Assembly: GCA_947457395.1 (NCBI GenBank)
Contig: CANGVA010000021.1
Span: 1-36,360, forward strand
Origin: Bacteroidota bacterium
GTDB taxonomy: Bacteria; Bacteroidota; Bacteroidia; UKL13-3
Length of the DNA: 36,360 bases
Direction of reading: 5' to 3'
Shown here: piece after piece, positions 17,614 to 19,001 of the stretch
Layout of the letters: every line of letters begins with the position of its first letter
How positions within the stretch are numbered: the stretch's first letter is position 1
Notes under the pieces: generated by a model
Seen by the model: only the letters and a program-made list of their open reading frames with translations
Told to the model about the DNA's origin: nothing
The model's database searches: none
Made by a program: the position numbers and the translations under genes

Positions 17614-18477
17614 TTAATCAATCTGGCTCTTGTCTTTCAGTTTTTTCATTTGTTTTAAATCATTCTCCGTGCACTTGCATTTATCTGTGTTTTCCTGCTT
17701 AAAATACATCAGCTGACCATCGGATGTCACAACAAGTTTGTTGCAGTTTTTTTCGTTATTTGAAAAGTAATAATGCATGAGCGCTGCATCCTGCGATAGG
17801 ATTGATTTTTGAATTGCTTCCTCATTCTCCAGCTCTTCTATTTCACCATCAAGCAGGGTGCTGGCATCTACCTTACCTTTTATTTCCAGCAACCTGCCCT
17901 CAATCAGCAGTTTCTTTCCTGCCATCATGCCCTTATCATTCGGGTAGCGAGTTTGTAGATACGACTCTGACATTTCTTTATCACTTTTGGCTTCAATCGC
18001 AAGTGTAAAATAGTTATTTAACAATTGCACACCTCTTATTAATTCTGCCTGCCAGTCAAATGTATCAATGGTATTCGAGCAGTATGCCTTGCCAATAATT
18101 TCAACCTCGGTAGCACGCTTTTTAAATTTGTTGAGCACAAGCAGTCCGTTAAAATCAGGTTCGGCAGAACAAAGTTTGGCTTTAATTTTTGTTCCTTTTG
18201 ATTTACTGAAAACAAGGAAACTATAATCGCCTTTACTATATGCTTTTAAACCCGTATCATAAGCAAATAAAAATGCCCCGTTAAAATTCCAATAGCGCTC
18301 CACGGCATACTTGATGGCAGCGTTATACGCGCTGTCGGCAAACAATACGACAACCATTCTTGAGTCCTTAAACTTATCTATATCGGCTTTTTTCTTATTA
18401 CCGAATTGTGCAATGGCATTGCTACCTGTGAGCAGCACGCAAAAAAGACTAATGAGATAACGATTTTGCTTATTCAT
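17614..18477 (-). CDS. Secreted protein of unknown function
   Basis: A 287-residue protein I do not recognise. It has a clear signal peptide (MNKQNRYLISLFCVLLTGSN...AIA, cleavage before QFGNKKK), so the mature protein is periplasmic or exported. The mature part starts with a lysine-rich stretch and a strand-rich segment (MVVVLFADSAYNAAIKYAVE, FNGAFLFAYDTG), has a cysteine in KLCSAEPDF and another in AYCSNTIDTF, an acidic helix (LLDGEIEELENEEAIQ), a further cysteine in EKNCNKLVV and a C-terminal CKC pair in DKCKCTEND followed by a lysine-rich end. There is no T9SS sorting domain. It is divergent from the GreA-like gene (68 bases between ATG codons) and convergent with the FG-GAP gene. No function can be assigned. 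Confidence 0.75.
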   Translation of the reverse strand: MNKQNRYLISLFCVLLTGSNAIAQFGNKKKADIDKFKDSRMVVVLFADSAYNAAIKYAVERYWNFNGAFLFAYDTGLKAYSKGDYSFLVFSKSKGTKIKAKLCSAEPDFNGLLVLNKFKKRATEVEIIGKAYCSNTIDTFDWQAELIRGVQLLNNYFTLAIEAKSDKEMSESYLQTRYPNDKGMMAGKKLLIEGRLLEIKGKVDASTLLDGEIEELENEEAIQKSILSQDAALMHYYFSNNEKNCNKLVVTSDGQLMYFKQENTDKCKCTENDLKQMKKLKDKSQID

Positions 18478-18545
18478 GATGGTTGAATTTATTTATAAAA
18501 ATAATAAACTTATTTCAGACTAAAGTAATTAATTATTTTCGAAAC

Positions 18546-19001
18546 ATGAATAATCAGTTCAGGAAAGCGTTGCTTGAAGTTTGCAAAGATAGGTTAACCG
18601 AACGGTTGCATGTATTTGAAGAGGCTATGCTTAGGGCACAAGCCTTTGCAAACGAGCAGGAAAAAAGCAGTGCAGGTGATAAATATGAAACATCAAGGGC
18701 TATGGCCCAGCTTGAGCGTGAAATGAATGCTGCACAGGCTGCTGAGGTACGAAACGAATTACAGTTTTTAATGAAGATTGACCCTGATTTGATAAGCAGT
18801 AAGATTGTAGTGGGGTCTGTTGTAGCGTCAGCGCGGTCTTGCTATTTTATCGGAGTAGGACTCAATACAATCAATGTCAATAATACAATGGTAGTAGCAC
18901 TATCAGCCAGAGCACCGTTAAGTAAAGCATTGCTGGGTAAACAGGCAGGTGATGTGGTTTATTTTAACAATATGGAGATTGCGATTAAGGCTGTTTATTA
19001 A
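18546..19001 (+). CDS. GreA/GreB-like small protein (often labelled 3-oxoacyl-ACP synthase)
   Basis: A 151-residue protein; the ATG at 18546 is chosen over a TTG at 18483. The N-terminal half is helical and charged, with SSAGDKYETSRAMAQLERE around residues 41-59 at what would be the tip of a coiled-coil hairpin. G44-D45-x-x-E48 matches the G-D-x-x-E tip of GreA, whose two acids promote RNA cleavage in RNA polymerase. The C-terminal half (ALSARAPLSKALLGKQAGDVVYF) matches the FKBP-like GreA domain, including the S-P-(I/L)-x-(R/K)-A-L-(I/L)-G-K motif. Proteins like this in Bacteroidota are commonly annotated as 3-oxoacyl-ACP synthase, but there is no thiolase fold or catalytic Cys-His-His here. 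It is inferred to bind the RNA polymerase secondary channel. Its end overlaps the convergent LolA-like gene by four bases. Confidence 0.78.
   Translation: MNNQFRKALLEVCKDRLTERLHVFEEAMLRAQAFANEQEKSSAGDKYETSRAMAQLEREMNAAQAAEVRNELQFLMKIDPDLISSKIVVGSVVASARSCYFIGVGLNTINVNNTMVVALSARAPLSKALLGKQAGDVVYFNNMEIAIKAVY

Follow-up and report, generated by a model that had tools for sequence, protein, structure and literature searches.

The window, that is, the whole 36,360-nucleotide stretch of Bacteroidota DNA that was analysed, carries a gene for a Gre-like protein, whose features are collected in Table 1. The reading frame opens with an ATG at 18546 and its stop codon ends at 19001; the product of 151 amino acids carries SSAGDKYETSRA and APLSKALLGKQAGDVVYF and has only two cysteines. 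At this place the initial annotation had described a 151-residue open reading frame in which G44-D45-x-x-E48 is followed by a C-terminal motif of the Gre type, and reading of the sequence confirmed it. The mechanically called ORF begins further 5′, at a TTG at 18483, but the ATG is the likelier start, since in the same-genus orthologue no more than three codons of open frame precede the corresponding ATG. The profile built for the family matched the genome once only, at this gene.

Table 1. Coordinates of the Gre-like gene and of the features of its product in the window
Feature	Position	Strand	Basis
Gre-like gene, product of 151 aa	18546..19001	+	ORF reading; sole match of its own family profile in the genome
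Two-helix hairpin, residues 3-76 (helices 3-41 and 44-76)	18552..18773	+	AlphaFold2 model
Tip motif KSSAGDKYETSRAM, residues 40-53	18663..18704	+	K40, S42, G44, D45, K46 and E48 invariant in 78/78 members
D45 codon, counterpart of E. coli GreA D41	18678..18680	+	Alignment to 1grj, column counts, profile alignment
E48 codon, counterpart of E. coli GreA E44	18687..18689	+	Alignment to 1grj, column counts, profile alignment
Gre-type C-terminal globular domain, residues 88-151	18807..18998	+	PF01272 match, model, structure alignment
Codons S120-P124, counterpart of GreA S121-P125	18903..18917	+	S120 and P124 invariant in 78/78 members

Upstream, in divergent orientation, lies the gene of a 287-residue protein (17614-18477, minus strand) which has no Pfam match at E ≤0.001 and is also found in the same-genus locus. 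Downstream are a LolA gene, in convergent orientation, and an RmuC gene; the Gre-like and LolA genes share their final four bases (18998-19001). Among the 40 neighbourhood loci compared, the two adjacent genes of the window recur only at the same-genus locus (L112), so that the neighbourhoods give no indication of an operon kept across the family. Of the 41 stretches (these loci and the window), 40 had the family gene among their called ORFs; in L120 the ORF caller missed it. In three loci (L140, L144 and L147) ketoacyl-synthase-like genes are no more than a few genes away from it; for this assignment, Pfam was run on just two genes, both at L140. These three loci also present FabH-like and, judged by eye, biotin-carboxylase-like genes nearby, and in L130 the family gene has one FabH-like neighbour. 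Elsewhere in the window, between 4537 and 12107, there are genes that we take to resemble components of the type IX secretion and gliding machinery (a GldK-like gene, a PorP/SprF-like pair and a PorU-like gene).

Relationship to the Gre factors

The window protein did not reach the cut-off of any Pfam or NCBIfam model. The greA model TIGR01462 matched residues 30-142 with E 1.9e-5 and 24.8 bits, far under the curated cut-off of 139 bits, and PF01272, the Gre C-terminal domain, gave a weak match (E 0.0018, 18.6 bits against a cut-off of 26.9). PF03449 was not listed for the protein at E ≤10, nor at the place of the gene in the genome profile search. Across 30 aligned family sequences, PF01272 was matched by 29 and TIGR01462 by 25, both at E ≤1. 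By these sequence comparisons, the Gre likeness of the window protein is greater than chance.

A first local profile comparison with canonical GreA was significant only for the 23-residue stretch 119-141 (probability 91%, E 1.1e-6), and a second one, with 79 family rows and 29 GreA rows, gave a match over the greater part of the C-terminal domain (probability 94.7%, E 5.9e-8). The GreA rows of this second comparison were chosen by a pattern that includes the tip, so that the tip identity of GreA in it is circular. The global profile alignment with GreA ran end to end and superposed G-D-x-x-E on G-D-x-x-E and the S/P loop on the S/P loop, although local confidence was low in the hairpin and nine gap columns directly preceded the tip. 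Sequence profiles gave a best E of 0.038 for Gfh1 versus 0.64 for GreA, a preference that was set aside because neither value is significant.

A separate canonical GreA, for which a search had been suggested in the initial annotation, is present in the genome on another contig (PF03449, 99.2 bits; PF01272, 82.8 bits). Its alignment to E. coli GreA (1grj) sets the numbering used here (D41, E44, S121 and P125), and the placing of the GreA tip acids at about 41 and 44 in the initial annotation was right.

The column counts refer to 78 main members, which are distinct sequences with that of the window included; matches beyond those 78 stand outside the counts. Main and weaker rows were split by score, the former all above 100 bits and the latter all below. 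In all 78, K40, S42, G44, D45, K46, E48, G90, S120 and P124 are invariant by alignment column, although the invariance of the tip is somewhat favoured by this selection, since the tip contributes to the splitting score. At position 41, 64 members have S and 13 have G; T stands at position 49 in 76, and M at position 53 in 77. It is on these columns that the tip claim stands, because the GDxxE string turns up by chance in the C-terminal parts of some paralogues.

Mean pairwise identity in the family is 0.81 at the tip and falls to 0.27-0.33 in the two helices and in the C-terminal domain. Such a peak is shared with GreA and not peculiar to the family, as GreA is also most conserved at its tip (a circular figure). 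The window gene and its same-genus orthologue, with 74% protein identity, differ in codons 36-65 by nine synonymous and no amino-acid-changing differences, and in codons 86-151 by about 27 synonymous and about 29 amino-acid-changing ones; ratios drawn from these counts are rough, because dS is near 1 in this pair.

The Asn and Tyr of the GreA string GDxxENxxY occur in none of the 78 family members, versus all of 30 GreA loci (GDLSENAEY). The family therefore resembles GreA and GreB in its predicted fold, its G-D-x-x-E tip and the presence of Ser and Pro in the C-terminal loop, and differs from them in lacking N-A-E-Y after the Glu, in the unmatched PF03449 and in a PF01272 score under the cut-off. 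Since it fails both on the Asn and Tyr and on the curated cut-offs of canonical GreA, we regard it as a separate Gre-like family and not as GreA.

Predicted fold and structural matches

The AlphaFold2 model, built on a 30-sequence alignment, has a mean pLDDT of 88.8 and a pTM of 0.75; a single-sequence model was poor (pLDDT 44.9) and was discarded. After a helix at residues 3-41, a turn and a helix at 44-76 comes a domain rich in strands, whose single helix is at 124-129. The acids D45 and E48 are at the tip of the predicted hairpin, where the initial annotation had placed them, with helix 1 ending at 41 and helix 2 starting at 44; this is the lower-confidence part of the model, with a mean pLDDT of 67 for residues 41-50 and of 76 for the preceding block.

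The Foldseek search of the PDB returned five matches at E ≤0.001, every one of them a Gre factor: Gfh1 (2f23, 3aoi and 3aoh), GreA (9a7t, an integrative model) and GreB (2p4v). TM-scores of the five best were moderate, from 0.37 to 0.66, with rmsd values from 3.8 to 12.7. With VIA-align, the model was aligned to Gfh1 in complex (3aoh) over 138 residues at 3.3 Å (Z 12.0) and to E. coli GreA (1grj) over 134 residues at 3.9 Å (Z 10.6), scores to be read with the caution that helical models with Z below about 13 may share merely a common arrangement. Unrelated coiled coils reached a Z of about 10 on the hairpin alone, nearly as good a score, so that the structural weight lies on the full-length coverage and on the C-terminal domain, of which 62 residues superpose on Gfh1 2eul at 1.3 Å. 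The expectation of a Gre fold thus held when it was checked on the predicted structure, which has a hairpin and a Gre-type globular domain and aligns over 134-138 residues with 3aoh, 3aoi and 1grj. A search of BFVD with the model gave nothing at E ≤0.001.

Gfh1 of Thermus (2eul, 2f23, 2etn, 3aoh and 3aoi) includes the best structural match, 3aoh, and has, as the predicted model of the window protein has, a long hairpin and a globular domain. Gfh1 coexists with a cleavage factor in Thermus, and the window protein likewise coexists with GreA. The tips differ: that of Gfh1 is a run of acids (SSDDYDDSG in the aligned chain), and that of the window protein, KSSAGDKYET, has one Asp and one Glu amid invariant Lys and Ser. 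A block of the Gfh1 type is therefore no close match, the Gfh1 tip being richer in acids. In addition, whole-molecule superposition of the model on the free Gfh1 crystal 2f23 is bad, with an rmsd of about 12. Rnk (3bmb) was matched by Foldseek with E 9.2e-3 over 96 columns; its coiled coil is described in a review (PMC4598747) as too short to reach the active site, and the predicted helices of the window protein have 39 and 33 residues. Rnk_N (PF14760) was not listed for the window protein, and none was found in the genome at E ≤1.

Distribution and paralogues

The single-sequence search found matches in 48 of 58 relatives, and the profile search across the phylum found them in 59 of 296 genomes. 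Of these, 56 belong to the class of the window genome, which is itself included, and three lie outside it, one being a GreA-type match (G246). In a larger sample of the class, 270 of 396 genomes matched the family profile at E ≤0.001, a count that includes eight rows with E >1e-20 (read by eye from the list), among them three (G455, G619 and G643) with E of merely 1e-5 to 1e-3, which are perhaps GreA. Canonical GreA is present in all of 35 chosen genomes (37 matches), eight of which are without a single-sequence match to the family. The scan of genome contigs gave one relative only (L036). No plasmid or phage homologues were found for P0001, and a second family member likewise had no homologue on a plasmid; in viral contigs, 37 stretches fitted a pattern and none was confirmed as a homologue. 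No paper on the present Gre-like family appeared among the titles and opening lines of abstracts given by literature searches, which covered few subscription journals.

Extra copies in some genomes make up a set of 15 weaker paralogues, obtained from 17 weaker rows by removing two by eye, one with a GreA tip (L110) and one without clear family features (L111). In all 15 the C-terminal loop retains its Ser and Pro, and only one (L104) has the G-D-x-x-E string at the tip. The phylogenetic tree was made from 70 rows, namely 40 main ones (every second of the 78, plus P0001), the 15 paralogues and 15 GreA sequences. GreA was split from all else by a long branch with 100% SH-aLRT. Main rows and paralogues did not form two clean groups: the main label needs six changes on the tree, of which well-supported branches force one.

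Six paralogues of one bacterial family, f21, grouped with three main copies of the same bacterial family (support 92), which suggests local duplication with a later loss of the acids. These second Gre-like genes, at about 2419-2932 of their respective stretches (L097, L098, L099, L101, L102 and L103), have a conserved tip, RDIKKTPKYDS or REIKKTPKYDS, in which D45 is lost and Asp replaces E48, and they keep the C-terminal loop. From their sequences, it is possible that they are tip-dead blockers. Three other weaker paralogues (L095, L108 and L109) have acid-rich tips (NEEDDSGN; D-x-D-E...DPEDFSHQ) that recall the tip of Gfh1.

A proposed second secondary-channel factor

The predicted fold and the conservation lend good support to the proposal of the initial annotation that the protein is a secondary-channel RNA polymerase factor, and from them we infer that it binds the polymerase. 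In GreA, D41 and E44 interact with the catalytic Mg2+ and the S121P mutant acts in vivo as if it could not bind RNA polymerase, according to PMC7527559. We propose, with a probability of about one half, that the window protein is a further secondary-channel factor, distinct from GreA, for which a role as modulator or GreA competitor is more likely than one as canonical cleavage factor. The C-terminal domain would dock at the rim of the secondary channel via the S120-P124 loop, and the hairpin would enter the channel and bring D45 and E48 to the catalytic Mg2+. As a modulator, the protein would then occupy the active site, so that catalysis would be slowed or blocked, or GreA displaced, as reported for Gfh1 and Rv3788; in this way it may tune or block RNA polymerase.

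A functional precedent for the tip is Rv3788 of M. tuberculosis, a protein from another phylum, which is likened to the window protein from its description in PMC3132773 and not by sequence. It is described there as having a Gre-like domain organisation and both acids and as missing, like the window family, the Asn and Tyr said to bind backtracked RNA; it does not stimulate cleavage. According to the review PMC4598747, Rv3788 is a competitor of GreA and keeps nucleotides from being added. GreA-like stimulation of cleavage by the window protein is unlikely, since its tip is without the Asn and Tyr by which Gre factors reportedly contact backtracked RNA and has an invariant K-x-S-x-G-D-K-x-E instead. 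The absence of Asn and Tyr from all 78 members, taken with Rv3788 as PMC3132773 describes it, argues against ordinary cleavage stimulation, an argument with one characterised precedent. Between a cleavage helper and a competitor, the choice tilts by this analogy to a modulator or competitor.

The strongest alternative, which we consider unlikely, is a true transcript-cleavage factor, a GreB-like specialist for one class of backtracked complexes in which the new invariant residues of the tip replace the Asn and Tyr; K40, S42 or K46 could be the substitutes in RNA contact. It would agree with the invariance of both acids (78/78), with a long predicted hairpin that aligns end to end with GreA, and with the strong selection on the tip seen in its identity and codon differences. 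In addition, the Asp alone is essential in MtbGre, where D43N is dead and E46R active (PMC3132773). On the other hand, the Asn and Tyr of GDxxENxxY are absent throughout, as in the inactive Rv3788 of the same source, and all 35 genomes tested already have a canonical GreA.

An initiation-level regulator of the DksA/TraR kind, acting through the secondary channel on promoter complexes and not on elongation, is improbable. DksA shares the use of the secondary channel and an acidic coiled-coil tip, and the coiled coil of DksA2 (4ijj) appeared at rank 16 of the Foldseek matches with an E of 1.2, which is not significant. However, the zinc finger PF01258 was not listed for the window protein at E ≤10, and the genome already has a match to the DksA/TraR zinc finger, with 32.8 bits against a cut-off of 24.9.

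It is still less probable that the protein is a descendant of the Gre factors that has left RNA polymerase and whose hairpin and globular domain serve another partner. The divergence of the helices and the C-terminal domain (mean identity 0.27-0.33) would suit such a change, and the family has no conserved gene neighbours that would indicate a pathway; the invariant tip acids, S120 and P124 are, however, the sites that are important in GreA. Last, homologues in Bacteroidota are, according to the initial annotation, commonly named 3-oxoacyl-ACP synthase, a name met in no record here, but this identity is refuted by a length of 151 residues, no ketoacyl-synthase match at E ≤10 and a Gre fold in the model, so that family scan and predicted fold agree with the earlier judgement that the sequence offers nothing for the name, of which the ketoacyl-synthase-like neighbours at L140, L144 and L147 may be the source.

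Less work has been done on the control of transcription in Bacteroidota than on that in E. coli. A broader reading, which we hold tentatively and at somewhat less than even odds, is that about two thirds of the genomes of the class have a dedicated second active-site factor that keeps the metal-binding acids and in which an invariant frame of Lys and Ser has taken the place of the RNA-binding portion of the tip, giving a new activity; later duplicates without the acids in some lineages may be pure blockers. The new activity would be an active-site brake, a control of pausing or initiation, or an antagonism of GreA, under very strong selection. The family is set apart from GreA by a sharp sequence signature, and the analysis provides a grounded name for a family whose window protein passes no Pfam or NCBIfam cut-off. 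If true, a class-wide second factor of this kind would allow a direct test of which residues of the tip make a cleavage factor and which an inhibitor.
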